A stretch of DNA of 64,000 nucleotides. Source: Bacteroidales bacterium (GTDB lineage: Bacteria > Planctomycetota > Planctomycetia > Gemmatales > Gemmataceae). This document shows, in pieces, positions 2,783 to 58,524 of this stretch. Both the position numbers and the translations under genes were made by a program. Where the stretch lies: assembly GCA_026931725.1 (NCBI GenBank), contig JAIXLE010000155.1, forward strand, positions 1-64,000. Reading direction: 5' to 3'. Below the pieces are notes generated by a model. It saw nothing but the letters and a program-made list of their open reading frames with translations. It was not told where the DNA came from and searched no databases. Position 1 is the stretch's first letter. Each line of letters starts with the position of its first letter.

Positions 2783-3105
2783 ATGAACAGGTGACTGCTG
2801 GGGTGTGGCTGCTCGGCAAGTGCCCCGGCAATCCTTGCCCTCCGTCCCCTCCCGATGCTGACGCTACTCAACTCCCGAAAATGAAGCGGCGATTCGCCGA
2901 GGCACCTGCTACACCGACGCCGGGTATTGCCGTCTCTGAGTGATCCAGCATATTTTCGGCCCAAAAAGTAGATGCCAGCAAGGCAACTGCTGATCTGCGT
3001 GGGGGTTTCGTCTTTCGCTGACAGACCGCCCTAAGCAGCCCGCTCACGAGAAGTCTGGTGCCTGTGGACTGCGGCGTGTAGGATTCTCCGCAAGGAGACC
3101 AGCAC
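2783..3105 (+). other. Intergenic gap with one 12-mer repeat
   Basis: No convincing gene. A copy of AGGCACCTGCTA is at 2900-2911. A 50-codon frame opens with GTG 2791 and stops at 2943, reading through the repeat, but it lacks a ribosome site and a recognisable family, so it is not called. AAGGAG at about 3093-3098 is the ribosome site of the next gene. Confidence 0.5.
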
Positions 3106-4622: not shown

Positions 4623-4801
4623 AGGCACCTGCTAGATCGGCGTGCCCGAGATCGCTGCTCTTGAGGCCAGACTGACGATCAGTAGGCACCTCTAAGAAAG
4701 GAACCAAAGCAAACCCCGAAAACAGAAAGGAGCAAGTTCAACACACGCATCCTACCAGACGTGTCAAGCGTCCATGGCCTCGGGCGACTTGGCACGTCTG
4801 G
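4623..4801 (+). repeat. Two 12-mer copies plus a 14-bp inverted repeat
   Basis: The gene-free stretch 4513-4870 holds AGGCACCTGCTA at 4623-4634, a one-base-deleted copy AGGCACCTCTA at 4684-4694, and a near-perfect inverted repeat CCAGACGTGTCAAG (4755-4768) with CTTGGCACGTCTGG (4788-4801), 13 of 14 positions paired plus one G-T. No T-run follows, so it is not an ordinary terminator; it could be a protein-binding site or an mRNA leader hairpin for the gene at 4871. CTGACGATCAG at 4672-4682 is also found at 4437 and 5257. Confidence 0.6.
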
Positions 4802-40658: not shown

Positions 40659-41747
40659 TCAGGTCTGCTGGTAGTGGGTTGCCGCTACACGGCAGTCACG
40701 GCACACAAAAGCGTAGTAGATGCCCTCGGCGGCTGCGTAGTCCTCGTTGCTGAGTTGAGCGATGAAGACCATTCTTTGCTGGCACGACGGACAGCGAGGG
40801 TATTCGGCATCCTGTTCCCACGATGGATGTCCACCAACCTGTGAAAACGAGATCGGCATGTTTCGGTCAGCAGACTCGGTGATGGGACGTTGCTGGCCGC
40901 TCAGAACCAATGCGTCAGCTTTCGGAAAGTCCCAGTCGGCTGCATCATCAGGCAGGTAGTCGGGACGAACGTTCGCCGGATGCCACGATACTCCTCCACT
41001 CCAGTCAACCTGCGTGAAGACCATTCCGTAGCAAGTACACACGTCACAGGTCTCGATCCGCAGGCGACTCCCTTCGATCCCGAGAGAGGCAAGCAACGCA
41101 TTGCTCAAGTCAAAGTCGAAAAGGGCAGTCATTCTGCGTCCGCACCACTGGCACGACGATTCGCTGGGAGCATTGGTCTGAACTGCGCTGGGGACGGCAT
41201 CGGGATGATCGTGCGTAACAAGTGGGTAGGACTCGTTGAGGAGCAATCCTCGCCTTTCTCCGTTCTCTGTAAGTTCCCAGCCCGCTGAGTCGGCGTATTC
41301 GTGAGGCGGGACGTGAAGGGATTTGGACCACGAAGGCGGGGTGGCTCGCCAACTGTGAAAGGCTTGTTGCACGTCGGAGTTGTCGGCCCACGCAAGAGCC
41401 AGCAGCGACAGATTTACGTTCTCGGCTTCGCCATTATCGAGTTGTTGGATCAGGAGGTTCGTCGCTTGTTGGTCAGCGCCGTGAAAGATCACTGGAGGGT
41501 AAAGCACGCCCTTCTGCGCCAGTTCGAGATGCAGACCAGAAAGGCTACCCGGCTGGAAGCAGGCGAGATGAGAAAGGATGTCACCATTGCCGCTTTCCAC
41601 GGCGAACCGAGCAAGCGTGCCGCACTCGTCCGATGAAAGCGAACGATAAGCTGCTGCGACATTTCGCTGGGCCGTGCGTAGCTTGTCCGCCGTGCCGAAG
41701 TTTCGGCATTCGTGAAATGCCTTGATCGTCTCGATTCGTTCGTTCAT
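40659..41747 (-). CDS. DUF1963-like protein with zinc knuckles
   Basis: A 362-aa protein. The C-terminal 200 residues resemble DUF1963/YwqG proteins (SFSQVGGHPSWEQDAEYPRC, MVFIAQLSNEDY), with extra cysteine pairs CQWC, CDVCTC, CPSC and CRDC likely to bind zinc. Related families have been proposed as immunity proteins. The first 130 residues are helical. The start at 41747 (MNERIETIK) is preferred because AAAGGA precedes it by 8 bases; an earlier in-frame start at 41780 is possible. Confidence 0.65.
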   Translation of the reverse strand: MNERIETIKAFHECRNFGTADKLRTAQRNVAAAYRSLSSDECGTLARFAVESGNGDILSHLACFQPGSLSGLHLELAQKGVLYPPVIFHGADQQATNLLIQQLDNGEAENVNLSLLALAWADNSDVQQAFHSWRATPPSWSKSLHVPPHEYADSAGWELTENGERRGLLLNESYPLVTHDHPDAVPSAVQTNAPSESSCQWCGRRMTALFDFDLSNALLASLGIEGSRLRIETCDVCTCYGMVFTQVDWSGGVSWHPANVRPDYLPDDAADWDFPKADALVLSGQQRPITESADRNMPISFSQVGGHPSWEQDAEYPRCPSCQQRMVFIAQLSNEDYAAAEGIYYAFVCRDCRVAATHYQQT

Positions 41748-41800
41748 CGCTTTGTCCTTTTTCTGGGCCATTATCGCCAAATGATTGCGTCCTTCCTACT

Positions 41801-41814
41801 GCGAGGTGCCTCGC
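41801..41814. repeat. Short palindrome resembling a minus-strand 12-mer
   Basis: GCGAGG and CCTCGC are perfect arms around TG. On the minus strand it contains AGGCACC, the first seven bases of the repeated 12-mer, about 53 bases before the start of the DUF1963-like gene. It may be a degenerate, leftward copy. Confidence 0.35.
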
Positions 41815-41916
41815 TGCGCCGCTGCCAATCGAAAAGTTGTATTCGCCTTTTCAGAAGGAGGCCGAGGCACCCGCTATCGCCGTCGTTCCCACTCACAACC
41901 ACAAAGGAGCGACGAA

Positions 41917-42819
41917 ATGAACGCAAACGACATCCGCAGCACCATCACCAGCACGATCATCGAGAGTTTGGAGGCCGGTGGCCTTCCGGCATGGCGCAAG
42001 CCGTGGGCAGCCGACCCAAACGGCCTCGGGCTGGCCACGTCGTTGTCAACGGGCCGTGCCTATCAGGGCATCAACCAGTTGTGCTTGCAAGTTGTGGCCG
42101 GAATGAAGCGTGGCTACCAGAGCAAGTGGTTCGGCACGTTCAACCAGATCAAGCAGGCCGGTGCCAGCGTGAAGAAGGGGGAGAAGGCCATTCAGATCGT
42201 GCTATGGAAACCGCTCAGCCGGGAACGCACGAACGAGATGGGCGAGCAGGTTGAGGACAAGTTCCTCGTGATGCGGAATTTCAGCGTGTTCAACGTTGAG
42301 CAGACCACCGGACTCGATCAATTCCGCATCGGGTTCGCCCAACCGTCCGACACGATCTTTGAACGGTTTGAGGCGATGGACCGCCTTGTCGCCGCTGTCG
42401 GGATCGATCTGCGGCATGGCGGCAACAAAGCGTTCTACTCGCCGGGCAGCGACTACATCCAGATGCCCCAACGTCATCAGTTCGAGTCGAGTGAGACGTA
42501 TTACCAAACGCTCGCCCACGAAATGACCCATTGGAGCGAGAAGCGGATCGGTTTCGACCGAGCGAAAGAGGAGAACGCCTACGCTCTGGGCGAACTGGTT
42601 GCCGAATTGGGGGCTTCGTTCCTGCTGGCCGAACTGGGCCTGCCTGCCAGCGAGAACATCGAGAACTGCACTCGGTATCTCGCCCATTGGATCAAAGCCA
42701 TGAAGGGCGACACGAGGTTCATTTTCCGTGCCGCAGCGACGGCTTCGAAAGCCGTTGACTACCTCCTCTCCCACGTCCGCACGCCGGAGTTCAACCCGTG
42801 CCCGTCCCCGACGAGGTAG
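41917..42819 (+). CDS. ArdC-like antirestriction protein
   Basis: A 300-aa two-domain protein. The N-terminal 130 residues are an ArdC-type single-strand DNA-binding domain (GLPAWRKPWAADPNGL, RAYQGINQLCL, WFGTFNQIKQAGASVKKGEK), and the C-terminal part is a zincin-type metallopeptidase-like domain with HEMTHW near residue 201 and GELVAELGASFLLAE. ArdC protects incoming DNA from restriction. AAAGGAG lies 8 bases before ATG 41917 and a 12-mer stands 40 bases before it. The TAG stop shares two bases with the next 12-mer. Confidence 0.9.
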   Translation: MNANDIRSTITSTIIESLEAGGLPAWRKPWAADPNGLGLATSLSTGRAYQGINQLCLQVVAGMKRGYQSKWFGTFNQIKQAGASVKKGEKAIQIVLWKPLSRERTNEMGEQVEDKFLVMRNFSVFNVEQTTGLDQFRIGFAQPSDTIFERFEAMDRLVAAVGIDLRHGGNKAFYSPGSDYIQMPQRHQFESSETYYQTLAHEMTHWSEKRIGFDRAKEENAYALGELVAELGASFLLAELGLPASENIENCTRYLAHWIKAMKGDTRFIFRAAATASKAVDYLLSHVRTPEFNPCPSPTR

Positions 42820-43043
42820 GCACCTGCTAGTGCCGTGTCCTTGAGGACAACCGAGCAGAGCCGCTCGGACGGTGATCGCACTGACGGTCAGGCTACGACG
42901 CCAAGCGAGCAACAGGACTGCCACCACGACTGGCCAGCGTGTGGCAGACACCACTGCGACAGCGAAGCCTCGACGCCTCTTGCAGATCACCCACGGGCGG
43001 CTCTCTCGGTCTCTTCCATTCCAAAAGTTGCACTGGAGGTTTC

Positions 43044-43394
43044 ATGTGTCAGGAGCAAGCGAAGCAGGAACACGACGACTACTGGCAGGCCGTTACCGAC
43101 GTGGCAGAGAACGTGGTCGCCGATCTCGAAGATGCCGACGACGAGGACGACCGTGACGAACTGATCTCTCGTCTGATCGCCGAGAAGTGCGACCAACACG
43201 AGTACGTCATCGGCGTCGATCTCTGCATCCACACGCTGAAGTATTCGGGCAGCGCCTGCGCCGGGTTCTTCGACGGCACGTTCGCCGCTAACCACTACGC
43301 CCGGAACGCCGAGTTCCCGTTCACCGCTCTCGCCGCCGACGCATTCGAAGCCGACGTGACCGACAAGGTGAAGGAACTCCTCGGCGACGAATGA
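43044..43394 (+). CDS. Hypothetical acidic protein
   Basis: A 116-aa acidic protein starting MCQEQAKQEHDDYWQAVTD, helical, with an ANHYARNAEFPF segment typical of small orphan proteins found on plasmids and integrative elements. GGAGG precedes ATG 43044 closely. The upstream region 42830-43043 is unusually long for this array; it carries TTCCAAAAGTTGCACTGG, identical to an 18-base stretch in the primase-like gene. A frame from GTG 42872 placed 42 bases after the 12-mer exists but looks like chance translation. Confidence 0.7.
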   Translation: MCQEQAKQEHDDYWQAVTDVAENVVADLEDADDEDDRDELISRLIAEKCDQHEYVIGVDLCIHTLKYSGSACAGFFDGTFAANHYARNAEFPFTALAADAFEADVTDKVKELLGDE

Positions 43395-43548
43395 GGCACC
43401 TGCTAGTCAAGTGCCGAGCAGGAATCAGCCGGTGAACATCGACGATCTGCGGTCTTCCTGCCCAACACTCGGAGACCGCAGCATCTCTTGCTGTCACCGC
43501 AGTCCTGCTCGGCACTTTCAGTCACCACCACTTCACAGGAGACACCTC

Positions 43549-44001
43549 ATGCTCGCCAACACCAAAGCTCTGCTCGCCAAAAGCTGGAAGAACGAAGCCG
43601 CCGATCTGCCGGTCGGAAAGCATGAAGTCAACGAGACGCTGATCGTGCGTGTCCGTGGAGAGATCGAGAAGCACGACGACCAGATGATTGCACCAACCGT
43701 CAGCATCCCGCTCGTCAGCGTCCTCGCCTACTTCTGGGAACGGGCAGGCATCGAGCGTGACGCCGCCATGTCGATGCTTCGAGAAGCCATCCACGAGGCG
43801 ATGACCAACGGCGAGAACGAGGACGCCGCTGTTCTGAAGCGGATCGAGGACGTGAACGCTGCCATCCAAGCGGTGAAGACGGACTTGATTGCTACGTTGC
43901 CCAAGATGCCCCGCAATGGAAAGCTCGACACCAGCCGTCTAACCATCGACGTGCTGGCCCTGTCTGCCGAAGACGAGCCGCTGGCAGTCGAAGCGGCGTG
44001 A
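43549..44001 (+). CDS. Hypothetical DUF6908/phage-like protein of unknown function
   Basis: A 150-aa protein of no family I can name with confidence; the label in the call is only a guess at a class of plasmid and phage orphans. It is helical (FWERAGIERDAAMSMLREAI, KRIEDVNAAIQAVKTDLIA) with a strand-rich start. ATG 43549 has AGGAG 7 bases upstream. The 12-mer is 143 bases before the start here, one of the few exceptions to the usual spacing. Confidence 0.6.
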   Translation: MLANTKALLAKSWKNEAADLPVGKHEVNETLIVRVRGEIEKHDDQMIAPTVSIPLVSVLAYFWERAGIERDAAMSMLREAIHEAMTNGENEDAAVLKRIEDVNAAIQAVKTDLIATLPKMPRNGKLDTSRLTIDVLALSAEDEPLAVEAA

Positions 44002-44107
44002 CCGTGAGTGGTGGTGAGCAAGGACGGCAAAGGAGTGCCGCCCCTGCTTCTTCAAGGCACCTGCTAATCCGCCAGACAACCACTTACCCACTGACGGAGA
44101 CACGCAA

Positions 44108-44719
44108 ATGGCGAATCGACTCGGCGAACTCGATCTGGAAGAAGCGGCCCAGAGCATTGTGGGAAACTGGAAACGGTTTCAGTGCTTCATTTGGTATCGG
44201 GATGACATCGAAGACGCAGACAACTGGGCCATCGTCTACACGCACAATCGAGACAGCGGCCTGCTTGATCTGAGCAACGCAGGCGTAATCGCCAAGGCCC
44301 TCGAACCATTCACGGATGGCGACGATCCCGACGTGGTGTTCGAGTCTCATAATCACTGGGCTGTTGGCCATGTTGATGGGGTCAGCCTTCGAATATTCCG
44401 TGATGGCAAGATCACCGACGCCTTTCGCAAGTACCACGATCTGGCTGAGTCGATGGCCAACTATCCGATCCTCGATGAAGAGGACTACAGCAACCGTGAG
44501 TACGAGGCGACGGTCGAAAACATCGCCGACGCCGCTTGGCGACTCAAGGATGACTTCGATTTGCCGGAAGGTTGGGAATACGAAGTCTACGGATGGCTCT
44601 CCGACAACGATCCCGGCGAGATCGAGAATCGTGACGATCAGGGCGGGTATCCGTCCGAGGCGTCGTTGCGAGCCGCCTTCGAAGCTCTGGGCTTCCCACA
44701 AGTCGAGACCGCTTGCTGA
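44108..44719 (+). CDS. Hypothetical acidic protein
   Basis: A 203-aa acidic protein, MANRLGELDLEEAAQSIVGN, with FIWYRDDIEDADNWAIVYTH, HNHWAVGHVDGVSLRIF and a C-terminal YEVYGWLSDNDPGEI. The strand-rich first half followed by helices resembles proteins shared among accessory elements, but no function is known. GGAGACACGCAA precedes ATG 44108; the 12-mer ends 41 bases before it even though the upstream stop codon is 54 bases before the 12-mer. Confidence 0.7.
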   Translation: MANRLGELDLEEAAQSIVGNWKRFQCFIWYRDDIEDADNWAIVYTHNRDSGLLDLSNAGVIAKALEPFTDGDDPDVVFESHNHWAVGHVDGVSLRIFRDGKITDAFRKYHDLAESMANYPILDEEDYSNREYEATVENIADAAWRLKDDFDLPEGWEYEVYGWLSDNDPGEIENRDDQGGYPSEASLRAAFEALGFPQVETAC

Positions 44720-44765
44720 GGCACCCGCTAAGTCAGTGTCACCACCAACAGAAGGAGACCTGACG

Positions 44766-45071
44766 ATGGCTTGGGAAATCAGCATCACCGCTGAAGGCTG
44801 GCAGCAGATCAGGGACAAGCTCGACGACTGGGATCGGGCTGCCCTGATCGCCGCCATCACCGACGACACGTTCGAGCGGGTCGAGCAAGTCGCCGGGCAG
44901 CACCACGCCCAGCGTGCCGCCGATGCCGAACGGAAACGGCTAGAAGATGTGCCTCAAGATGTTCTCGCCGACCGAGCCTACGAACTGATCGAGCAGGCGA
45001 ACACCTGTGACAGCGGCGGCTTCGGCTACTGGGTGGATCGAGAGGGCTACCACAAGGTCTGGCTCGATTAG
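44766..45071 (+). CDS. Hypothetical protein
   Basis: A 101-aa protein, MAWEISITAEGWQQIRDKLD, helical and acidic, ending GGFGYWVDREGYHKVWLD. It has no recognised domain. AAGGAGACC lies 6 bases before ATG 44766. The preceding 12-mer variant (AGGCACCCGCTA) ends 35 bases before the start, and the TAG stop codon overlaps the next 12-mer. Confidence 0.7.
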   Translation: MAWEISITAEGWQQIRDKLDDWDRAALIAAITDDTFERVEQVAGQHHAQRAADAERKRLEDVPQDVLADRAYELIEQANTCDSGGFGYWVDREGYHKVWLD

Positions 45072-45119
45072 GCACCTGCTACAGCGGTGTCCAATCCAAC
45101 TTTTGTAACGGGGAAAGCC

Positions 45120-45398
45120 ATGAGCCAGATTCAGTATGCCGACGAGATTGTCGGCGAATACACACTGCACCGCCGTCCTGTGGCGAAGCGGGGAATGATG
45201 CAACTTGTTCCGGGGCAAGGAGCAGATGGTTATGGACGGAAGATCACGACCAACATCTGCTTGAAGTTCGCAGGCGAGAAGCGAGAGCGGCGGGTTTACT
45301 GTTGCTGCTTCTCAAACAGCGGGACGTGTTACGTCGTGGTCAACGGCCAGACGTTGTACTTGCGGACGCATTTTCAGGACGAGGTGCTGGACGACTGA
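45120..45398 (+). CDS. Hypothetical protein
   Basis: A 92-aa protein, MSQIQYADEIVGEYTLHRR, beta-rich, with RRVYCCCFSNSGTCYVVVNG near residue 60 containing four cysteines that could bind metal or form a ribbon. Function unknown. The leader holds CAACTTTTGTAACGG, which also precedes the gene at 48780. GGGGAAAG is the ribosome site; the 12-mer ends 38 bases before ATG. Confidence 0.65.
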   Translation: MSQIQYADEIVGEYTLHRRPVAKRGMMQLVPGQGADGYGRKITTNICLKFAGEKRERRVYCCCFSNSGTCYVVVNGQTLYLRTHFQDEVLDD

Positions 45399-45450
45399 GG
45401 CACCTGTAACTGAGACATCACCAATCCATTTTTTACTGGGAGCGATCATC

Positions 45451-46416
45451 GTGGATTTCGACGATCAGGAGAAAACGCCAACTGAACTGCGAGATGTGCG
45501 ACCTTCGAGCTTCTCGCACGTCATTGGTCAGGATCACGTCAAGCAAGCCTTGCAGATCGCCGTCGATGCGGGATTTCAAGAGGGCAAGCGGCTCGACGAG
45601 GTATTGCTGTGTGGCCCGCCCGGATTGGGCAAAACCGCTCTCGTGCAGGTCTTGGCTGACGAATGCTGCGTACCTTTCACTGAGGTACTCGCTCAAAGCA
45701 TCACGAATGCTGCCGAATTGAACTCAGCATTGTTGTCGTCTTCCGAGGGCATCCTGTTCCTCGACGAAATTCACCTGCTGCATCCCACTCAACAGCACGC
45801 CCTGTTGATCGTGCTGGATAAGCGGCGCATCTTCCTGAGCGGCGGCAAGTCCGTGCAATCGATCCCCGTTGCTCCCTTCACTTTGATCGGGGCAACCACC
45901 GATCCTGATGGTCTCATCAGTCCGCTCGTGGATCGCTTCAAGATGGTGCTGCATCTGGATTACTACAGCCACGATGAACTCGGCAAGATCGTCCAGCAGC
46001 GTTGTCTCGCTCTCCACTGGGAATACGAACCGGAACTGCTGGCAGAGATCGCCCAGCGTGGTCGTCAAACTCCCCGAATCGCCCTTCGTCTGCTCGGTGC
46101 GGCTCGCCGTGTGGCCGTGGCAGCGGGCGAAAACAGGATCGAAGTGAGGCACCTGCTACACGCATGTCAGATCGAACGCATTTCATCCCGTGGCTTGGAC
46201 AACTTTCAGCAGAAATACATCCGACTACTCAGGCCAGCGAGCCAGCGACTCAATGTTCTGGCGTCGATGATCGGGGTCAGCACCAAAGTTGTCACGGCGA
46301 CCATCGAACCCTTCCTGCTGCGCTCGGGACTCGTGGTCAAGTCGGACAACGGGCTGCGGCAGTTGAGTCAATCGGGGCGTGAACATCTCTCTGAGATCGA
46401 GTCAGAGACGGCCTGA
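45451..46416 (+). CDS. RuvB-like Holliday junction helicase
   Basis: A 321-aa AAA+ ATPase of the RuvB family: HVIGQDHVKQALQIAVDAG, Walker A GPPGLGKT near residue 56, Walker B LFLDEIHLL near 107, sensor GATTDPDG near 150 and the C-terminal winged helix (LRLLGAARRVAV). It lacks the 15-20 N-terminal residues of chromosomal RuvB and is divergent, and no ruvA or ruvC is adjacent. RuvB drives branch migration; here it may aid recombination or replication of the element. The GTG start has GGGAG 8 bases upstream. A 12-mer copy at 46147 lies inside the gene. Confidence 0.85.
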   Translation: MDFDDQEKTPTELRDVRPSSFSHVIGQDHVKQALQIAVDAGFQEGKRLDEVLLCGPPGLGKTALVQVLADECCVPFTEVLAQSITNAAELNSALLSSSEGILFLDEIHLLHPTQQHALLIVLDKRRIFLSGGKSVQSIPVAPFTLIGATTDPDGLISPLVDRFKMVLHLDYYSHDELGKIVQQRCLALHWEYEPELLAEIAQRGRQTPRIALRLLGAARRVAVAAGENRIEVRHLLHACQIERISSRGLDNFQQKYIRLLRPASQRLNVLASMIGVSTKVVTATIEPFLLRSGLVVKSDNGLRQLSQSGREHLSEIESETA

Positions 46417-46491
46417 AACCATCCTTCTTCCGCCCAACAAAGCACCTGAAACACGCCTGCATTCGCCCTGTTATTGTCGAGGAATCATCCC

Positions 46492-46929
46492 ATGAATATC
46501 CCAGAAAGGCCCACAAAAGCGGTTGTTTCTGTCGTGGAAATGGCCAGTTTGTGTCTTCTTTCACGATCACGTTTCTACTCGCTGATCCAGTTGGGTGCGT
46601 TTCCTGAACCGATCCGAAACGAGTCCTGTAAGCGTCCTGTTTACGACTTGGAATTGCAGCAAAAGTGTCTCGATATTCGCCGGTCTGGGATCGGCTTGAA
46701 TGGTCCTGTCCTGTTCAACCGGAAGAGCAAGACGACCGGCAAGAAGTCCCGGCCCAAGCTGACCAGCGATCACGCCGACCTGCTGGACGCCCTGAAGTCG
46801 CTGGGTTTGCAGACCACAGCCGAGATTGTCGATGGCGCATTGAATGAGTTGTTCCCGTCCGGCTGGGCCAACGTGGACGAGGGCCAGCGAGTCCGGCAGG
46901 TATTCCTGCATCTTCAGAAGAAGAAGTGA
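46492..46929 (+). CDS. AlpA/MerR-like HTH protein
   Basis: A 145-aa protein whose N-terminal half (SVVEMASLCLLSRSRFYSLI, GAFPEPIRNESCKRPVYDLE) matches the AlpA/phage excisionase helix-turn-helix with its wing. The C-terminal half is basic then helical (NRKSKTTGKKSRPKLTSDHA). Such proteins regulate or assist the recombinase of the element, and the XerC-like gene is directly downstream. ATG 46492 has GAGGAA upstream; the degenerate repeat at 46440 ends 40 bases before it. Confidence 0.75.
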   Translation: MNIPERPTKAVVSVVEMASLCLLSRSRFYSLIQLGAFPEPIRNESCKRPVYDLELQQKCLDIRRSGIGLNGPVLFNRKSKTTGKKSRPKLTSDHADLLDALKSLGLQTTAEIVDGALNELFPSGWANVDEGQRVRQVFLHLQKKK

Positions 46930-47002
46930 GGCACCTGCTATTTCGCAGAACACATGGTTCACGAAATAGAACCGCCCTTTTCACCCGCTGGAGTGTCCCA
47001 CA

Positions 47003-47728
47003 ATGGCCGAAACCGACGCCAACGGCGCATCACAAAACGGAAAAGCGAAATCCGAAATCGTCTCGCAGGTGGCCCGGATCGTCAGGAAGCACGGGCTGAC
47101 CTACGACGACTGGCGATATGTCAGCAAGCGAGTCCGGCAGGTTTGTGAACTGCGACCAGCCAAGAAGCCGAAGAAGCTGCCGAAGGTGCTGAATGCCGAC
47201 GACTTTCGCAGGTTCTACAAGATCGTGGATCAGGCCGACGACGTGCAGCACGCCTTGATGCTGCGACTGCTCTTCTACACCGGCGTCCGGGTCAGCGAAC
47301 TCTGCAACATGCAGAGCATCGACGTTGATCTGGAGAATTGCAAAATCAGGATCAATCAGGGGAAGGGATCGAAGGACCGTTACGTCCTGTTTGGGAAGAC
47401 GTTTGCCACGGCACTGCGAACACACATCGCCGCCCACCCGAAGAACCGATGGTTGTTCCAGACTCGACGCAACACGAAGTATTCCTCCCGTCGAGTCCAG
47501 CAGATCGTGAAGGACTACGCTGAGCAAGCGGGCGTGAAAGCGACTCCGCACACGTTCCGCCATCAAGCCATCACATGGCTGACTCGGCATTCAGGGCTGG
47601 CCGACGCCGAGTTGCAAATCCTCACAGGTCATGCCCGACGAGAGACGCTCTCGATCTACCAAAATGTCGCACTCGATGGCGACCTTGAGGCGAAGTATCA
47701 GGAAGCGATGAAGAAGGCCGATCTCTGA
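47003..47728 (+). CDS. Compact XerC-like tyrosine recombinase
   Basis: A 241-aa tyrosine recombinase with all catalytic positions: Arg in FYTGVRVSEL near residue 97, Lys in GKGSKDR near 122, HTFRH near 183, GHARRE near 210 and Tyr in LSIYQNV near 219. The N-terminal DNA-binding part is only about 75 residues, shorter than XerC/XerD (about 300 aa in all). It lies inside the small-gene array and is distinct from the divergent integrase at 986. Role may be multimer resolution or DNA inversion/excision of the element. The 12-mer is 62 bases before the start, the longest of the set. Confidence 0.9.
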   Translation: MAETDANGASQNGKAKSEIVSQVARIVRKHGLTYDDWRYVSKRVRQVCELRPAKKPKKLPKVLNADDFRRFYKIVDQADDVQHALMLRLLFYTGVRVSELCNMQSIDVDLENCKIRINQGKGSKDRYVLFGKTFATALRTHIAAHPKNRWLFQTRRNTKYSSRRVQQIVKDYAEQAGVKATPHTFRHQAITWLTRHSGLADAELQILTGHARRETLSIYQNVALDGDLEAKYQEAMKKADL

Positions 47729-47742
47729 CGCAAGCGAGGAAC

Positions 47743-48066
47743 ATGGAAATGGAAGACAAGACGAAGGCTCTGCACGTTGTGAGCGAGGTGCGTCGTGTCC
47801 TCGACGAAGGCGGTCTCACGCCGTATCGAGAGGCGCTGTTCTTTCGTCAGGTCTACGAATCCACCAACTGGAGAACGGGCAAGCAATTCACGGTGAAGGA
47901 GGCCGCTGCGGAGCTTGGCATCAACTACGGTCGATTCCGCAACGGCCTGATGCTGGTGATGCCATTGGTTCCTGCCTCGCTGACCGACGATGACAGGAAG
48001 GGCTTGCTGGAGGCACCTGCTGATCCGAGCAGAATCAGACGACTTCTATTCGGAGAACGCAGATGA
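47743..48066 (+). CDS. Hypothetical protein with HTH-like region
   Basis: A 107-aa protein, MEMEDKTKALHVVSEVRRVL. The middle (KQFTVKEAAAELGINYGRFR) looks like a helix-turn-helix, so DNA binding is possible. It starts 14 bases after the recombinase stop without its own 12-mer, so it depends on the upstream unit. The 12-mer at 48011 lies inside its 3' part (reading EAPADP) and serves the next gene. ATG 47749 is an alternative start. It overlaps the next gene by 4 bases. Confidence 0.65.
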   Translation: MEMEDKTKALHVVSEVRRVLDEGGLTPYREALFFRQVYESTNWRTGKQFTVKEAAAELGINYGRFRNGLMLVMPLVPASLTDDDRKGLLEAPADPSRIRRLLFGERR

Positions 48067-48314
48067 CCGCTGTTCAGCAGCACCGTCCCAACTTTGCCAC
48101 GCTCCAGAGCGCCTTTCAGAACGGCGACGAGGCCCTCTTGGAATGCCAACTCAAGTCAACCGGCGAGTCCGTGGCGGTAATCGTGGCCGTCAATCGAGAC
48201 GGTGAAGAGTTCGGCTTCGTTCCGTTCGCCATGATGTTCAACGGCAATCCCTACGAGATGTTGAACCCGCCTGATCCTGATGGTGGGTTCCACGACGCCG
48301 AGGTGTCTTGCTGA
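48063..48314 (+). CDS. DUF6117-like protein
   Basis: An 83-aa protein, NFATLQSAFQNGDEALLECQ, with VAVIVAVNRDGEEFGFVPFA and NPYEMLNPPDPDGGF, the pattern of short proteins annotated as DUF6117 on plasmids and integrative elements. Function unknown. ATG 48063 overlaps the previous stop (ATGA), and the 12-mer within the previous gene ends 40 bases before it, so it may have two routes of expression. Confidence 0.65.
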   Translation: MTAVQQHRPNFATLQSAFQNGDEALLECQLKSTGESVAVIVAVNRDGEEFGFVPFAMMFNGNPYEMLNPPDPDGGFHDAEVSC

Positions 48315-48380
48315 GACTGCGGCAGGCACCTGCTACGTCCTCCGACGAACAATCTCACCTTGCTTCCTCGGAGGACAGAC

Positions 48381-48686
48381 ATGAGCAGAACCGTCATTGC
48401 CCACGCCAACAATGAGATCGTCCAGCAAGCTTGCTCGGACGCCAGTGCAGTGCAGGATGCCGTGAATCTCATCGCCATCGTCGGATCATTTCACCGTCAA
48501 CTTCTGGCGCTTCGGCAAGCCGGTGTCTTCGGTGACGAACTGAACAACCACCCTGTCAGCTTGGCATTCATCAGCAAGCTCAACTCGCTCTGTCGGATGT
48601 CGCTGGACCGAGAGATCAAAGCATTCGAGGCCCTCGACCGGCTTCAGCGAGGCGAGGACGCTGAGTTCGAGGTTCTTCCGCTCTGA
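48381..48686 (+). CDS. Hypothetical helical protein
   Basis: A 101-aa helical protein, MSRTVIAHANNEIVQQACSD, ending in an acidic tail (RLQRGEDAEFEVLPL). No family recognised. GGAGGACAGAC precedes ATG 48381 as a strong ribosome site, and the 12-mer ends 45 bases upstream. It has one Cys pair spread over the chain, no membrane segment. Confidence 0.65.
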   Translation: MSRTVIAHANNEIVQQACSDASAVQDAVNLIAIVGSFHRQLLALRQAGVFGDELNNHPVSLAFISKLNSLCRMSLDREIKAFEALDRLQRGEDAEFEVLPL

Positions 48687-48779
48687 CCCATGCGGTTATG
48701 CCCTGTTTGATCGCCCGACTCTGGGCACCCGCTAAGTCTCCAGTTCGACCAATGCAACTTTTGTAACGGAGACTGGCGG

Positions 48780-49199
48780 ATGTCCCAGAAGATCACTGCA
48801 AGCTTTACGTTCCACGGCCACGACCTGACCGCCGATGTCGTCAACGCTGGCGATTGGTTTGGGAAGACGTGGCTGCTGGAGATCGGCGGCAGCTTCACCC
48901 CTCTCTTCTTGATCGTCGAGGCGGATTCCCCGACTGACGCAATCGATGAATTGAGCGATTCGGACAAGTACGGCCACCACATCGTGGTCGATGAAGCTGA
49001 TCTGGCCGACTATCCCGAAGACGAGCGGCACTACGGCCCGAGCGGTCAGGTCATCGACACGGACTGGCTCAGCGTCCACGGCTGCGAGGGATGCGCCGTG
49101 CCGTTCACTTGTCGGTATCACGGGGAAGGTCTCCCTGAAGAGGGAGTGCTGCCGACCGAGTTCTCGTGGGATGATTTCGACGCCGACGAGGACGAGTGA
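48780..49199 (+). CDS. Hypothetical acidic protein
   Basis: A 139-aa protein, MSQKITASFTFHGHDLTADV, beta-rich, with a cysteine/histidine cluster (HGCEGCAVPFTCRYHGEG, residues 99-116) that could bind a metal, and an acidic tail (DDFDADEDE). Function unknown. The leader contains CAACTTTTGTAACGGAGAC, shared in part with the gene at 45120; the 12-mer variant ends 45 bases before ATG. Confidence 0.65.
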   Translation: MSQKITASFTFHGHDLTADVVNAGDWFGKTWLLEIGGSFTPLFLIVEADSPTDAIDELSDSDKYGHHIVVDEADLADYPEDERHYGPSGQVIDTDWLSVHGCEGCAVPFTCRYHGEGLPEEGVLPTEFSWDDFDADEDE

Positions 49200-49256
49200 A
49201 GGCACCTGTTACTTGGGCGTCAGTCACATTCACTCAAGCAGCAGGAGACCAGAACG

Positions 49257-49679
49257 ATGGGATGGTATTACCCACACGGCGTGAACCGGAAGGAATTGAT
49301 TGCCCAGCGAGTCGAAGACTGGGAGCGAGACACCGGCGAGATGCTCGTCAAAAGCACCTGCCTCAAGCACTGCTATCGTGGCGGCGTCTTCTCGGGTGTT
49401 CTCTGGAGCGTCTGGGAGCGGACCTTCACGAAGGACGGCAGGGAAGTCCAGCCATCTCAGCGTTGGATCGGCGTGGACCTGCTCCACTGCTACCAAGGTG
49501 AATGGGGCTACAAGCCGCTTGAGGAATCAATGGGGCCGTACTACTTCAGTTGCCCGTTGAGCTACCTCTCGGATGTTCCCCTTGACCGCTACGGCGGCAA
49601 CCCCGAATGGCGTGAACTCGTGATCCAGCATCACCGCCGTCAGGCAGAGAAACGCAAGGGACGGGCCATCATCATCTGA
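49257..49679 (+). CDS. Hypothetical phage/ICE-associated protein
   Basis: A 140-aa protein, MGWYYPHGVNRKELIAQRVE, with VLWSVWERTF, GVDLLHCYQGEWGYKPLEES and YFSCPLSYLSDVP. This pattern occurs in small proteins encoded by phages and integrative elements; function unknown. The C-terminus is basic (HHRRQAEKRKGRAIII). CAGGAGACC lies before ATG 49257 and the 12-mer ends 45 bases upstream. Confidence 0.7.
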   Translation: MGWYYPHGVNRKELIAQRVEDWERDTGEMLVKSTCLKHCYRGGVFSGVLWSVWERTFTKDGREVQPSQRWIGVDLLHCYQGEWGYKPLEESMGPYYFSCPLSYLSDVPLDRYGGNPEWRELVIQHHRRQAEKRKGRAIII

Positions 49680-49746
49680 TCTGTCCCTGACAAGGCACCT
49701 GCTACCCGAATGCTGGAAGTCATCACCATCACTCGGGAGCAGCCTC

Positions 49747-49986
49747 ATGCCGCAGCAACAACTCTTCACCGTCGTCGAATACAGCAGCTTCTTCGCCGTC
49801 CGCCACAACTCGTCCGGCGACGAACATCCGATGGGCGATGGCGTGGACACGCTGTTCGACGAGGACGGCCACGCTCTCTGTCCCGGCACGCCGGGCTTCA
49901 TCGAGACGTGGGAAGAAGTTCTCAACGCTGACGAGGACTCGACCCTCGAAGCCTACTTCCCCCAGCACCTCGACGCCGCTGCCTGA
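49747..49986 (+). CDS. Hypothetical acidic protein
   Basis: A 79-aa acidic protein, MPQQQLFTVVEYSSFFAVRH, strand-rich at the start and acidic at the end (TWEEVLNADEDSTLEAYFPQ). No family recognised. GGGAG lies about 7 bases before ATG 49747 and the 12-mer ends 42 bases before it. Codon use matches its neighbours. Confidence 0.65.
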   Translation: MPQQQLFTVVEYSSFFAVRHNSSGDEHPMGDGVDTLFDEDGHALCPGTPGFIETWEEVLNADEDSTLEAYFPQHLDAAA

Positions 49987-50045
49987 TCTCGCAGGCACCT
50001 GCTACCGCAGCATCACATCACACCACTCGAACAACAGGAGTCATC

Positions 50046-50333
50046 ATGGTCACCGAACGCAAGCCGCTGTTCTCGCTTGGACAAATCGTCGCCACGCCGG
50101 GGGCATTGGAAGCTCTGGAGAAGGCACAACAAGCACCGATGGAGTTCCTCGCTCGTCATGTTCGTGGCGACTGGGGCGACGTTTGCGAGGAAGACGCCGA
50201 GGCTAACGAGCAGTCCCTCAAGGATGGAAGCCGCATCCTCAGTTCATATCGCACGAAGCTCGGCGAGAAACTCTGGGTCATCACGGAAGCGGATCGCTCT
50301 TCGACGTGCATCCTCTTGCCCGACGAATACTGA
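50046..50333 (+). CDS. Conserved plasmid/ICE protein
   Basis: A 95-aa protein, MVTERKPLFSLGQIVATPGA, with HVRGDWGDV, ANEQSLKDGSRILSSY and a C-terminal WVITEADRSSTCILLPDEY. I recall this pattern as very widespread on proteobacterial plasmids and integrative conjugative elements, where it is annotated as hypothetical. No catalytic motif is evident. ACAGGAG stands before ATG 50046 and the 12-mer ends 41 bases upstream. Confidence 0.8.
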   Translation: MVTERKPLFSLGQIVATPGALEALEKAQQAPMEFLARHVRGDWGDVCEEDAEANEQSLKDGSRILSSYRTKLGEKLWVITEADRSSTCILLPDEY

Positions 50334-50397
50334 CCGGGCCAGCAAGGCACCTGCTACCCGATTGTCAGAACAACCAACCCGAACACTGGAGATCAGT

Positions 50398-50643
50398 ATG
50401 GCTGACGAAATCGAAAGCCTTCGTCGGGAACGACTCGCCGAGATCAACTGTGAGCCGGGCAGTCGTGAGGCACTCGAAGCCCAACACGATCAAGTGTGGT
50501 CCACAGATCAGCTTCGTGAGGATTTCGAGGTGCTGGGCTTCATGGCTCCCTACGTCGTGGTCCGTCGCCGGTCGGACGGCGTGAAAGGGTCGCTGGAGTT
50601 CCAGCACAACCCTCGCTTCTTCTTCAACTGGCAGCCAGAGTGA
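50398..50643 (+). CDS. Conserved accessory-element protein
   Basis: An 81-aa protein, MADEIESLRRERLAEINCEP, with STDQLREDFEVLGFMAPYVV followed by a basic strand pair and RFFFNWQPE. The motif GFMAPYVVVRR is common in small element-encoded proteins. Function unknown. CTGGAGATC precedes ATG 50398, the 12-mer ends 41 bases before it, and a strong terminator follows at 50657. Confidence 0.75.
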   Translation: MADEIESLRRERLAEINCEPGSREALEAQHDQVWSTDQLREDFEVLGFMAPYVVVRRRSDGVKGSLEFQHNPRFFFNWQPE

Positions 50644-50656
50644 GAAGGTCTCAGGG

Positions 50657-50700
50657 CCAGCCTCGGTCCCGCTTTTCGTGGGATCGGGGCTGGTTTTTCT
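50657..50700 (+). terminator. Rho-independent terminator
   Basis: A 14-bp stem (50657-50670 with 50680-50693, two G-T pairs) and a 9-base loop followed by TTTTTCT. It ends the main run of the small-gene array. Confidence 0.9.
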
Positions 50701-50714
50701 CTTGGAACAAGCAC

Positions 50715-50924
50715 ATGCAGCGAGAGCAGGCACACGTCGGGTTGCTGGTCGTCTTCGGGATGCCGGGCGAGGAACAGACGCTCGGCCAGATCGTGAAGTT
50801 GAATCCAGCACGAGCCAAGATCGAAACGCTGGAGTCGAGAGCCGGTCGTCCAGTCGGGACGAGGTTCAACGTCCCGTATGCCCTCATGCTGCCGGTCAAG
50901 GAACAGCAGGCACCTGCTACTTGA
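50715..50924 (+). CDS. Hypothetical small protein
   Basis: A 69-aa protein, MQREQAHVGLLVVFGMPGEE, with QTLGQIVKLNPARAKIETLE, a pattern that looks like a small beta-barrel (SH3-like) protein. The ribosome site is weak. It starts just after a terminator, so its promoter is unclear, and no 12-mer precedes it. The 12-mer at 50908 overlaps its last codons (QQAPAT) and serves the next gene. Confidence 0.5.
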   Translation: MQREQAHVGLLVVFGMPGEEQTLGQIVKLNPARAKIETLESRAGRPVGTRFNVPYALMLPVKEQQAPAT

Positions 50925-50957
50925 ACAACGAGATCACACCAACCACGGAGAACTGCC

Positions 50958-51248
50958 ATGCCGGTTTACGAGATCGAGCAATATGAGTTGCACACCATGA
51001 CTTATCGTGTCGAGGCAGACGATCCCGCCGAGGCTATTGTCAAAGTCCTCGACGGTGAAGCCGATCCTGTGGACAACTCCCAAGAATACATCGAGATCGC
51101 CGACGAACGAGGACTGCTCGTGGCAGACCACCCCGAACTGGCTGAGAAGCTGCGGGTGCAGGGAGTGCCGGTCGATGACCGGATCATCCCTTCAATCAGA
51201 AGCGTGTCGGTGGTCGAGGAAGGAATAGAGACGCTTATGGAACGCTGA
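50958..51248 (+). CDS. Hypothetical acidic protein
   Basis: A 96-aa acidic protein, MPVYEIEQYELHTMTYRVEA, of the small alpha/beta kind (strand, then DDPAEAIVKVLDGEAD helix). Such proteins are frequent in planctomycete and phage accessory DNA; function unknown. ACGGAG precedes ATG 50958 and the 12-mer ends 38 bases before it. It is the last gene of the array. Confidence 0.65.
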   Translation: MPVYEIEQYELHTMTYRVEADDPAEAIVKVLDGEADPVDNSQEYIEIADERGLLVADHPELAEKLRVQGVPVDDRIIPSIRSVSVVEEGIETLMER

Positions 51249-52025
51249 CTGGGACATCTGCTTGGTGGACGTGGGAAGAACACGCCGCCGTGCTTGCCCC
51301 GAGGCCGTGGAAATCCTCGGGGCGGAACAGATCGTGTTACAAAAAATGAAACAAAAGAACTCTGGGTGAGGCACCCACGCTCCAAGCTACTGGCCCGGCC
51401 CACAGAATGACTTAACCCTCTGTTTCTTTTTATTTGCTCACTGCTGGTCTCAGTTTCCCAGTAGAACCGTATCCCGCTTCTCTTTTGCGAACTTGAAAAA
51501 ATCGCCGCCGCCGAAAATCTGCTGGCTGGCAAGGTCGCCCATGTACGGCTGTTGCAAAAGTTGTAATGATCTGACGAATGCTTTCTTGCTGGTGGGCTGA
51601 TCGTCGTGGTGGAATCATCGGACTCCTGCTGAAAACCGCCGCCGATCTTGGATTCAGAACCCCAGTTGTCGCCAGTCCAGCCAGTACGAATCTGCCCTTG
51701 GACCACTGGATGCTGTCCTCGCTTGTTCGCCTGAACTCATGCGGTTGTTCGCTCTCATTTGGCGCTCGATCTGTGCCAGTTCCAGAAGAAAGCATTGCCA
51801 AGCGGACTCGTCAGATCGAGTCTGGATTTCGCTCATTGTTTTCGTTTCCTTTCGTCACGCATCATTCAGGACGAGAGACGCTCAAGTGGAGATACACACC
51901 CCCTTCGGGGTGTGATCTCCTTGATGCGTCTCCCTGTGATGTCCTGTGAAAATGACCATTTTCTGGTACTTCTATTTCTAGGGGGGCAGAAAATGGAAAA
52001 CGCCCTGAACTCCTTGTTTTACTGG
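51249..52025. other. Convergent intergenic region with two inverted repeats
   Basis: No supported gene in 777 bases. A degenerate 12-mer (AGGCACCCACGC) is at 51369. A bulged 14-bp hairpin with a CTTC loop is at 51888-51920 and a 10-bp inverted repeat CCATTTTCTG/CAGAAAATGG is at 51956-51965 and 51987-51996. The region lies between the end of the array and the 3' end of the RepA-like gene and is more AT-rich than its surroundings. CAAAAGTTG at 51551 belongs to a small recurrent motif. Confidence 0.5.
51888..51920. terminator. Possible terminator hairpin
   Basis: GGAGAT and CACACCCC (51888-51893, 51895-51902) pair with GGGGTGTG and ATCTCC (51907-51914, 51915-51920) around CTTC, with one bulged A. 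No T-run follows on either strand, so its role as a terminator is uncertain. Confidence 0.45.
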
Positions 52026-54166: not shown

Positions 54167-54202
54167 AGGCACCTGCTGTCTTCGGACACAGGTGCCTTTT
54201 CT
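54167..54202 (+). terminator. UUCG terminator whose left arm is the 12-mer repeat
   Basis: AGGCACCTG, a bulged C and TGTC (54167-54180) pair with GACACAGGTGCCT (54185-54197) around TTCG, followed by TTTTCT. The left arm is a copy of the 12-mer (ending CTG). It terminates the gene at 53858 and at the same time stands 44 bases before ATG 54223, as the 12-mer does elsewhere. Confidence 0.85.
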
Positions 54203-54222
54203 ATTCCAAAACTTGGAACGCA

Positions 54223-54720
54223 ATGATGTCGAATGACGACTTCTCTGATCTCCAGCCCTGCCAACCCCAAACCGAAGAAGAGAGGATCGCCGTTTTGTTG
54301 GAACTGCTGAGCAGCGGGTTCGAGAACGACGCCGATCTCGACGCTGTTCGTGATGCAGCGCTCCACCATCTGCTTCAGTTCCCACGCCTTCCTGAGCGGA
54401 CCATCGGCATCATGCTGTCGATCCTTGCCGTCGAGAACGACAGCGATCTTGTTCTCAACCGGAAGGTGGCGGCGTGCGACGTTTTGGCTCACATCGGGCC
54501 GAAGGCCAAGCCCGCTTTTGCGACTTTGAACGACCTGTTGCCGCTCGTGGAGTCAGATAGTGACTTTGAGCGGTGGTTGGCCCTGCGAGCGGCAAGGGCC
54601 GTTTGGAAAATCACTGGGGACTCGTGGTTTGCGGTAGAAGTCGCTTCGATGGTGGCAGAAGACGAGGAAGCGTGGTTGAGGATTCACGCCAATGACCTGC
54701 TTGGTCAGATCAGCCGATGA
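54223..54720 (+). CDS. HEAT-repeat-like protein
   Basis: A 165-aa acidic helical protein with HEAT-like repeats (DAALHHLLQFPRLPERTIGI, KAKPAFATLNDLLPLVESDS, ALRAARAVWKITGD). It resembles the HEAT protein at 40106-40603, sharing the ESDxDFER segment. Partner unknown; small HEAT proteins sometimes act as immunity or scaffold proteins. ATG 54226 is an alternative start. It converges on sigZ. Confidence 0.7.
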   Translation: MMSNDDFSDLQPCQPQTEEERIAVLLELLSSGFENDADLDAVRDAALHHLLQFPRLPERTIGIMLSILAVENDSDLVLNRKVAACDVLAHIGPKAKPAFATLNDLLPLVESDSDFERWLALRAARAVWKITGDSWFAVEVASMVAEDEEAWLRIHANDLLGQISR

Positions 54721-54766
54721 ACACTCAGTGCAAGAGTTGGAACGCATTTCACCGACTTCATAGCTT

Positions 54767-55357
54767 TTACGAAGTTGGTGGAAGCTCCAAGTCGCCGCAG
54801 TCTCGGCAGACGGTTCGATCCGGCTTGGGATCACAGTCCATCACGTTACCCTGCCGGTCGAACTCGAACACGCAGCACTGGTCGAGAACTCCTCGAAGCA
54901 TGACTCGTCCCCGCTGGATGCGAGACTTGGCACCTGACACCGACAGCCTCAGCCGGTCAGCCACTTCATGCTGGGGCAAGCCCTCGATCTCAGAGAGTCT
55001 GACGGCCTCTTGGTAGGTCGGCGGAAGTTGGCCGATCAGTTCGTCGAGCCAAACGCCAGCACTGGCCTTGAGTTGGTCCTTGCCATCGTTCTCTTCGGCC
55101 ACGTCCATGTCCGCCAGCGACACGTTGCCGTTCTTCGCCCGGTAGTCGTCGTGGATTACGTTCCGAGCGATCTGGTAGACCCACGCCGCCAAGCGGTCGG
55201 AATCTTCGAGCCTGTCCACGTTGCGATGAATCCGCAGGAACGTCTCTTGGAGCAGATCGTCGGCCACATGCTCATCGGCGACCCTGCGACGGATGAACCG
55301 TCGCAGGGCGTCGCTGAGTTGTGACCAGATCGTCTCGGTGGCGGGGTTCGCAGTCAT
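54767..55357 (-). CDS. sigZ: RNA polymerase sigma factor SigZ
   Basis: A 196-aa ECF sigma factor. Region 2 is FIRRRVADEHVADDLLQETF and AAWVYQIARNVIHDDYR, region 4 is LPPTYQEAVRLSEIEGLPQH followed by LRLSVSGAKSRIQRGR. The tail with CCVFEFDRQGNVMDC and CRDCGD cysteines is characteristic of SigZ and may sense metals or redox state. ATG 55357 has GAGGAA upstream. It follows arsI by 17 bases in the same direction, suggesting control of, or by, metal stress. Confidence 0.85.
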   Translation of the reverse strand: MTANPATETIWSQLSDALRRFIRRRVADEHVADDLLQETFLRIHRNVDRLEDSDRLAAWVYQIARNVIHDDYRAKNGNVSLADMDVAEENDGKDQLKASAGVWLDELIGQLPPTYQEAVRLSEIEGLPQHEVADRLRLSVSGAKSRIQRGRVMLRGVLDQCCVFEFDRQGNVMDCDPKPDRTVCRDCGDLELPPTS

Positions 55358-55374
55358 CACATTCCTCGTACTGC

Positions 55375-55935
55375 TCATTTTCCCGCTTCACCCAGACAGG
55401 AGCAAGCTGTCATGCCGCCTGCCGCACGAAAGGCTTCCTGCGCCGCCACGAAGTCGCCTCGTTCCACGGCCTGCATGACGGAGGGAATCCCCGAGCAACA
55501 CGAGGAGTGGTTCGATGCGTGCTGCTGGGCTTCGTTGTCGAGGACGACGTACACCTCCCAGTTGTTGCCATCGGGATCGGAGACCCACACCTTGTCCTGC
55601 ACGGCGTAGCAGCAGGTCACGTTCTCCTCAGTCCTCGTCTCCAGCCCAGCCTGCTGGAGCCGGTCGGCGATCTGTTTGACGGCTTCACTCGACTTGACCT
55701 GAATGCCGAAGTGGGCGACGGGGTTGGTCTGGCCGGTCGCACCGCCGACTTCGTTCAGCGAGAGATTCACGGGCGGCTCGGCCACCTCGAACTTTGCGTA
55801 CCGTGGCCGAGTTTTGGTAGGGGGCTGGCCGAACAGGGACGTGTAGAAGGCGATGGACTTCTCCAAACTCTTGACCGCCAAGCCCATGTGGATGCGGCTC
55901 TCGGTCTCGAATTGGACTGCGGAATGCCTGTTCAT
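55375..55935 (-). CDS. arsI: ArsI/CadI-family dioxygenase (organoarsenical lyase)
   Basis: A 186-aa vicinal oxygen chelate protein: RIHMGLAVKSLEKSIAFYTS with the metal-binding His, NPVAHFGIQV, and TCCYAVQDKVWVSDPDGNNW with the vicinal cysteines that bind trivalent organoarsenicals in ArsI. ArsI cleaves the carbon-arsenic bond of methylated or aromatic arsenicals with Fe(II) and oxygen. Extra C-terminal cysteines (CCSG, CSC) are typical of ArsI/CadI. GAGGAGC is the ribosome site. CadI-type cadmium induction is an alternative role. Confidence 0.85.
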   Translation of the reverse strand: MNRHSAVQFETESRIHMGLAVKSLEKSIAFYTSLFGQPPTKTRPRYAKFEVAEPPVNLSLNEVGGATGQTNPVAHFGIQVKSSEAVKQIADRLQQAGLETRTEENVTCCYAVQDKVWVSDPDGNNWEVYVVLDNEAQQHASNHSSCCSGIPSVMQAVERGDFVAAQEAFRAAGGMTACSCLGEAGK

Positions 55936-56046
55936 GTTCTGCTCCTCGTTCGTGCTTCGACGGCTGCCAATCAGCCGCCTCTGAAAGTACAGACGGAGGT
56001 TCTCCGAAAAGGACGCAAGAATCTCGAAGCAGATGTTCGGGCCGAG

Positions 56047-57540: not shown

Positions 57541-57603
57541 CGAACCACCTTTCCGTATCAACGGTGAGTGCAAGAACTCTTGTCGAAACCTCGTTCCACG
57601 TCT

Positions 57604-57635
57604 ATTATCGACATTACACCCAAGTACAAGGTCAA
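57604..57635 (-). promoter_or_regulatory. MerR-type promoter with long spacer
   Basis: On the minus strand TTGACC (57635-57630) and GATAAT (57609-57604) are separated by 20 bases, the elongated spacing that MerR-family activators correct by twisting DNA. CACCC and GGGTG arms (57617-57621, 57636-57640) flank the -35. It drives the CopZ-MerT-HMA gene; the MerR gene is divergent. Confidence 0.7.
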
Positions 57636-57711
57636 GGGTGTTCTGGAAGTTTTTTCTGACGATAGCGATTGGACCGCAACCACATGCAGGCACGCTGCTT
57701 ACGGAGTGGAA

Positions 57712-58122: not shown

Positions 58123-58160
58123 TGTCGATTCGCTCAACCGGCGCACAGCAAGGAACCTCA

Positions 58161-58499: not shown

Positions 58500-58524
58500 C
58501 CGCTTCGACAGCGAATGGCATAAT
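58496..58524 (+). promoter_or_regulatory. ars operon promoter
   Basis: TTGACC (58496-58501) and CATAAT (58519-58524) are exactly 17 bases apart. The predicted start near 58531 leaves only about 6 bases before the arsR ATG, so the transcript would be nearly leaderless. Confidence 0.7.

Follow-up and report, generated by a model that had tools for sequence, protein, structure and literature searches.

A repeated, element-specific word in the gene leaders of an establishment-type array of planctomycete integrative elements suggests a shared control tag

Introduction

In 5′ leaders that sequester the Shine-Dalgarno sequence, the class of riboswitches, thermosensors and translational operators, one arm of the leader pairs with the ribosome-binding site. 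The ops element, linked to RfaH among the NusG paralogues, is a word of 12 nt that acts on operons made up of mobile or accessory genes, and integron attC arrays hold homogeneous, element-specific, hairpin-bearing sites between small genes. In the literature, searched in part, the nearest published parallel that we found to the locus described here is EGeRS, the establishment gene regulatory sequences of pLS20-type plasmids, of which EGeRS1 and EGeRS2 lie before ardC and other variable genes (PMC8708921). EGeRS1 is 325-600 nt long, has a multi-branched structure and precedes operons, and EGeRS2 is a promoter flanked by Reg operators (PMC8708921). Frpo/ssi are likewise hairpin-bearing sequences before anti-restriction genes of mobile elements (PMC11541004). 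The present analysis concerns a 64-kb stretch of planctomycete DNA, hereafter the window, which is the first 64 kb of contig C203 and carries an integrative element with a gene array of the establishment or anti-restriction type. Almost every gene of this array is preceded, about 40 nt before its start codon, by a 12-base word, AGGCACCTGCTA, which an earlier note on this DNA had taken as the mark of an element-wide regulon. We consider it somewhat probable that these genes are marked by a short mRNA leader element of which the word forms the conserved 5′ part. Together with an arm that pairs within the same leader, the word suggests an undescribed control tag shared by the whole array.

The locus resembles EGeRS in that a repeated, element-specific sequence before ardC and variable small genes defines a regulon; the first gene of the array is ArdC-like (PF08401, PF18818) and has the word. 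It differs in that the shared sequence is a 12-nt word in a leader of about 55 nt, stands before nearly every gene and belongs to Planctomycetota. A long structured region or Reg operators around a promoter were not found in leaders of this length, a Reg homologue not having been sought by name. With Frpo/ssi the locus shares hairpins ahead of anti-restriction genes, but here the sequences are much shorter, there is one per gene, and the stems, of 5-13 bp, contain no −35/−10 hexamers that a folded single strand could present. In contrast to integrons, gene order is conserved among elements with the same word, the word is linked to downstream starts, and it is not matched to the array recombinase. 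The integron reading was rejected because no constant sequence in the leaders complements the word, as the core boxes R″ and R′ of attC complement each other, and because a cognate recombinase of the IntI kind is lacking: the array recombinase and helix-turn-helix (HTH) protein of the relative G312 match those of elements with another word. Unlike the Shine-Dalgarno-sequestering leaders, all leaders of one element carry the same short word, those of other elements carry another, and Rfam gave no match. Finally, ops occurs once per operon whereas the word stands before each gene, and a reading by way of ops/RfaH was set aside as the genome has no second NusG-domain protein.

Results

Distribution and spacing of the word

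The window was searched for AGGCACCTGCTA with up to two mismatches, with dinucleotide shuffles as background. There were 24 matches, all on the plus strand, against a mean of 2.68 and a maximum of 8 in the shuffles; about 20 had been counted before. The exact word occurs 17 times in the genome of 5,406,586 bases, and every copy lies on C203 (13 inside the window, 4 just beyond it). Seven copies with one mismatch on other contigs have the appearance of chance matches. The exact word is thus confined to one element in this genome. The exact copies beyond the window, at 70510, 72252, 74660 and 75180, are on the minus strand, and three of these four precede minus-strand genes. The orientation of the word therefore follows the sense strand of the following gene; the plus-strand rule of the earlier note holds for all 24 copies in the window but not outside it.

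The observation of the word before gene starts is confirmed and extends outside the window. From the end of the word to the start codon, 13 array genes have spacings of 40, 41, 35, 38, 41, 40, 45, 45, 45, 42, 41, 41 and 38 nt. When the decayed copy AAGCACCTGAAA at 46440, with a spacing of 40 to the AlpA-like gene 46492, is included, 14 array genes fall at 35-45 nt, in agreement with the earlier count; the values of 62 for gene 47003 and 44 for gene 54223 were also reproduced. The distance from the preceding stop codon to the word varies as described, from −56 (48011, the word lying inside the preceding gene) to +53 (44055), and the copies at 48011 and 50908, both within the 3′ end of the preceding gene, keep their spacing at 40 and 38. 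Other copies stand apart from this pattern. Those at 14878, 26141 and 36559 (two mismatches) look like chance, and the exact copy at 46147 inside the RuvB-like gene is probably a coding coincidence because in relatives, too, the corresponding protein motif (RHLL) is encoded by a near-copy. The copies at 42818 and 43394 lie upstream of conserved non-coding stretches, without a close start codon.

The same word and other words in related elements

About 600 genomes were searched for relatives by pattern and protein searches, which replaced gapped-pattern scans of viral and genome collections that were too loose and gave chance matches. Seven further element loci in six genomes showed the same word at the same spacing: arrays with the word in G140, G164, G277 (two loci) and G312, and two copies each in G116 and G157. 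Over the eight element loci, 73 words precede a start codon with a Shine-Dalgarno sequence at a mean distance of 42.4 nt, mostly 36-46.

Homologous arrays lacking this word were found by a search with the protein at 49257. They have a different repeated word at the same place in the leader, again with a spacing of about 40: TAACACCCGCTTG in L315, L316 and L318, TGACACCCGCTTG in L317, AGGACACCGGCAA in L319 and L325, CGGACACCAACTA in L321, GACACCTGTTAG in L322, AGGCACCCCCTTG/TAG in L323 and TAACACCCGCAAG in L326. Since different words occupy the same place in homologous arrays, orthologous genes have the word that belongs to their element and not one that belongs to their gene family. The order of the families fam13 and fam15 differs between word types. 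CACC is the sole part common to all words; a loosely conserved NGCTWG follows. A second box, YRT(C/A)A, starts 11 nt after CACC in all word groups large enough to judge; the spacing between word and box is invariant, and one word group has 0.6-1.1 bits per position. The central proposal of the earlier note, a word tied to downstream starts across an element-wide regulon, is therefore supported, and it applies as well to about 20 other elements of this kind, each having its own word. Being uniform within an element and changed between elements, the word points to a co-evolving reader.

Pairing of the leader with its own Shine-Dalgarno region

In a partner-swap test, designed to exclude composition effects, the 5′ part of each leader was paired with the 3′ part of random other leaders. 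The sample comprised 128 leaders, and the first 16 nt after the word were compared with the leader's own last 26 nt. The own partner was better (z = 14.0, 0/400). The first 7 nt by themselves gave z = 8.8, and positions 8-20 had no effect (z = −0.8). Leaders with the word of the window's element (z = 11.3) and elements with other words (z = 8.3) both showed the effect, whereas word-less genes of the same elements, taken as controls, did not (z = 1.1 and 1.4). Stems of at least 6 Watson-Crick pairs numbered 57 where 24 were expected, and the z-scores of the minimum free energy averaged −1.23 for the leaders versus −0.21 for word-less control leaders (P = 0.003). An arm pairing with its own Shine-Dalgarno region beyond chance, as in a translational operator, is thus present. 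Orthologous leaders keep the hairpin with a different sequence; for fam40 it is CCCCCAG..CTGGGAGG in the window's element, CTCCAAATTTTG..CAAAGTTTGGAG in G140 and GGCTCCAGTTT..AAAACTGGAGCC in G157. In several elements the leader of the gene 49257 family (fam13) pairs through the word itself, whose bases CCTGC(T) match (A)GCAGG of the Shine-Dalgarno arm; where the word has CTCCT or CCTA, the partner is AGGAG or TAGG.

Because the stretch that pairs with the Shine-Dalgarno region follows the word directly, the leader RNA should, if the pairing matters, start at or before the end of the word. This disfavours an ordinary sigma promoter, from which transcription would begin 5-15 bases past the word. 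The earlier note had placed a promoter of an unusual sigma factor, an activator box and an mRNA leader element side by side; the leader element fits best, given that the arm pairs with its own Shine-Dalgarno region and that word-less genes lack such pairing. It is rather unlikely that the word and the YRT(C/A)A box form a DNA-level promoter or an activator or repressor box, bound by an element-encoded regulator or an unusual sigma factor, with a start at the YR step and a leader of about 34 nt. The invariant spacing of word and box would suit such a site, and so would the conserved non-coding RNA unit, whose hairpin begins near the YR step, and the CA-rich leader that comes next; moreover, words precede the first genes of divergent units, and element-specific operators over ardC and other establishment genes are known from p576-type plasmids (PMC8708921). 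However, the 7 nt that separate the word from the YR step are complementary to the own Shine-Dalgarno region, which would be pointless if they were untranscribed, and words occur inside operon-like arrays and in upstream coding sequence. A sigma-dependent promoter starts transcription 5-10 nt past its −10 box, and its RNA lacks the intervening bases. In addition, the spacing from CACC to the box is too short for common sigma promoters. A sigma54-like reading of GGCAC..TGC was rejected because its spacing is not right and the pattern is absent from other words.

The stems could equally form in DNA. Hairpin and word might then act on the strand transferred in conjugation, in early expression or priming, like Frpo/ssi in leading regions, which we regard as improbable. 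ArdC opens the array, the array includes small plasmid-borne genes, and structured regulatory sequences linked to ardC are known (PMC8708921; PMC11541004), but leaders of about 55 nt cannot fold a −35/−10 duplex as Frpo does, every gene has one, many are without a stem, and the genes scanned included no recognisable relaxase or transfer gene.

Gains, losses and exchanges at words

Gene order is kept among elements with the same word, apart from gains, losses and one three-gene swap, in which the RuvB-AlpA-recombinase module differs between the window's element and G312 with both borders at words. Between arrays, homology blocks have 130 ends, and 48 of these have a word within 6 bp in each of the two sequences, a proximity shared by 4% of positions; this excess is partly due to the word being conserved where the neighbouring sequence is not. 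Three gene-less mini-units of G140 and the unit 49693-49993 of the window are present or absent exactly from word to word. The linkage to gene starts claimed by the earlier note stands, but its rider that the word is not linked to cassette ends was too strong, since many gains, losses and swaps of units end exactly at words. These borders are what would be expected if the word were the crossover site of an element recombinase and delimited gene cassettes. We nevertheless think this very unlikely: same-word elements share one gene order, the tyrosine recombinase and HTH protein of G312 are close matches to those of L315-L317, which have other words, the word lacks the fixed partner of attC core sites, and some indels end inside leaders (43524 in the window against G312). 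Direct-repeat slippage accounts for deletions with words at their borders, and a conserved word is in any case a place where alignments tend to end.

Word units without a gene, 60-76 bp long, also occur between the integrase and ParB-methyltransferase genes at L259 9005-9317 (G140) and L262 9163-9267 (G164). The same stretches contain an inverted word/anti-word pair with AAAGGAGGTG, followed by a terminator.

The array and its surroundings

The features of the array are collected in Table 1. Besides the ArdC-like gene, the array encodes a RuvB-like ATPase, an AlpA-like HTH protein, a tyrosine recombinase and numerous small proteins that lack Pfam domains. The family of gene 50046-50333 was present in 22 of the 22 array loci compared, and this small protein is found on 188 plasmids (81 typed conjugative, 42 mobilizable); three Gammaproteobacteria plasmid relatives of the gene that were examined had no such word.

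Table 1. Word copies and associated features in the window
Feature	Position	Strand	Remarks
Exact word, non-coding, between integrase and ParB-methyltransferase gene	2900..2911	+	
Exact word in non-coding region	4623..4634	+	
Partial inverted word AGGCACCT, facing outward, upstream of ArdC word	41803..41810	-	Same layout in g164, g277, g312, g277b, L323
Word AGGCACCCGCTA and leader of ArdC-like anti-restriction gene, first in array	41865..41917	+	Hairpin GTCGTTCC/GGAGCGAC; spacing 40
Exact word, then conserved non-coding-RNA-like unit opening with GTCC..GGAC hairpin	42818..42829	+	No close start codon
Exact word, then conserved structured non-coding stretch of ~125 nt	43394..43405	+	
Word and leader of gene 44108-44719	44055..44107	+	Spacing 41
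Word and leader, gene start 44766	44719..44765	+	Spacing 35
Word and leader of gene 45120-45398	45070..45119	+	Spacing 38
Word (2 mismatches) and leader of RuvB-like AAA gene 45451-46416	45398..45450	+	Left border of three-gene swap with G312
Exact word within RuvB-like gene	46147..46158	+	Probably coding coincidence
Decayed word AAGCACCTGAAA and leader of AlpA-like HTH gene 46492-46929	46440..46491	+	Spacing 40
Word and leader of tyrosine recombinase gene 47003-47728	46929..47002	+	Spacing 62
Word in 3′ end of gene 47743-48066; leader of DUF6117 gene 48063-48314	48011..48062	+	Spacing 40
Word and leader, strong Shine-Dalgarno hairpin GTCCTCCGA/TCGGAGGAC	48324..48380	+	Right border of three-gene swap; spacing 45
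Word (2 mismatches) and leader	48723..48779	+	Hairpin AGTCTCC/GGAGACT; spacing 45
Word and leader of gene 49257-49679	49200..49256	+	Word bases CCTGTT pair with Shine-Dalgarno arm AGCAGG; spacing 45
Word-to-word unit, gene 49747-49986	49693..49992	+	Absent between matching genes of G140, G164, G277; spacing 42
Word and leader of gene 50046-50333	49993..50045	+	Spacing 41
Word and leader of gene 50398-50643	50345..50397	+	Spacing 41
Word in 3′ end of preceding gene and leader of gene 50958-51248	50908..50957	+	Spacing 38
Word (1 mismatch) in terminator-like hairpin AGGCACCTG..CAGGTGCCT-TTTT before gene 54223-54720	54167..54222	+	Spacing 44

At ArdC in several elements, two outward-facing words flank a conserved non-coding tract of about 45-55 bp with a quasi-palindromic motif, TTCCAAAAGTTGTATTGG. 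If the words are in transcripts, this tract is the expected place of a promoter, and it could hold a divergent promoter upstream of both words. No conserved promoter box was found upstream of the word. A second element-enriched motif, CCAACTTTTGTAAC / TTCCAAAAGTTGTA, is a near-palindrome TTCCAA-N3-TTGGAA with sites in the window at 41831-41850, 45096-45109, 48754-48767, 51551-51564 and 43022, and at 70475 of the L001 region. It is found in some leaders, at ArdC between the divergent words, and within a conserved stretch 3′ of the array, and is a possible operator or promoter. That stretch, of about 160 bp (51484-51646), is directly downstream of the array, conserved in five other elements and centred on GTTGCAAAAGTTGT; it may be a small RNA or a regulatory site.

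The left end of the window contains a tmRNA gene (430-835, by Rfam search) and then a large, divergent integrase-like gene (851-2782), in which no integrase domain scored above the Pfam threshold. Similar elements adjoin the tmRNA gene in several relatives. The right contig end, C203 75313-75441, matches tmRNA-adjacent sequence of G140 and G164 (87.6%), and because of this resemblance both element ends may be present on the contig. Cargo defence genes at 15720-36807 comprise a HerA and SIR2-like pair and a BREX/Pgl-like cluster (DUF6079, DUF7008 methyltransferase, NERD-domain kinase, Lhr-like helicase) with about 98% protein identity in G312. Next to the array, at 54757-58500, reading of the translations indicated metal-resistance-like genes (SigZ-like sigma factor, heavy-metal-associated transport domains, MerR-type regulator).

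Discussion

The leader proposed here would consist of a word of 12-13 nt (CACC core, the rest element-specific), about 7 variable nt often pairing with the own Shine-Dalgarno region, then the YRT(C/A)A box and a CA-rich loop, and finally the Shine-Dalgarno site ahead of the start codon, which lies about 40 nt past the word. In poly- or monocistronic RNA, the word would serve as docking site of an element-specific trans factor, either a protein or an RNA with an anti-word. Binding of this factor would determine if the neighbouring hairpin masks the ribosome-binding site or leaves it accessible, and the whole array would be switched together. From the pattern of the sequences we infer that the structure forms in RNA, that translation is controlled and that a trans factor exists. 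Tentatively, an element-specific RNA word read by a co-evolving factor could both switch the establishment genes together and insulate them from related elements in the same cell.

Several observations weigh against a leader element of this kind. A strong stem is present in only about 40% of leaders, and the remainder are unusually unstructured. G.U pairs in stems are only mildly over-represented versus A.C juxtapositions (14 versus 16), and because this asymmetry is so mild, RNA and single-stranded DNA were not separated. The constant distance of 11 nt from CACC to the YR box is reminiscent of a bipartite DNA site or of a start-site dinucleotide, and Rfam gave no match up to E = 1 in 41700-52000, the tmRNA being the only one in the window. 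Nor was a trans factor found. The AlpA-like HTH protein and the array tyrosine recombinase were rejected as readers of the word, closely similar HTH proteins and close relatives of the recombinase occurring with different words. The one NusG-domain protein of the genome is encoded on another contig, with none in the element. The word/anti-word pair with AAAGGAGGTG, tried as an anti-word RNA, lies beside the integrase in G140 and G164; no clear equivalent was found in the window's element, and the pair is a lead only.

Regulatory sequences shared by establishment genes are known only from a few plasmids. Many planctomycete elements share these gene families and each has a word of its own in the corresponding position, which constitutes a natural experiment in the co-evolution of a regulator and its targets. 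The word also offers a sequence handle for finding establishment genes, those for anti-restriction included, most of them lacking any known domain. Finally, the limits of gained and lost genes seem to be set by the word, and regulation would thereby be tied to modular evolution in these elements.

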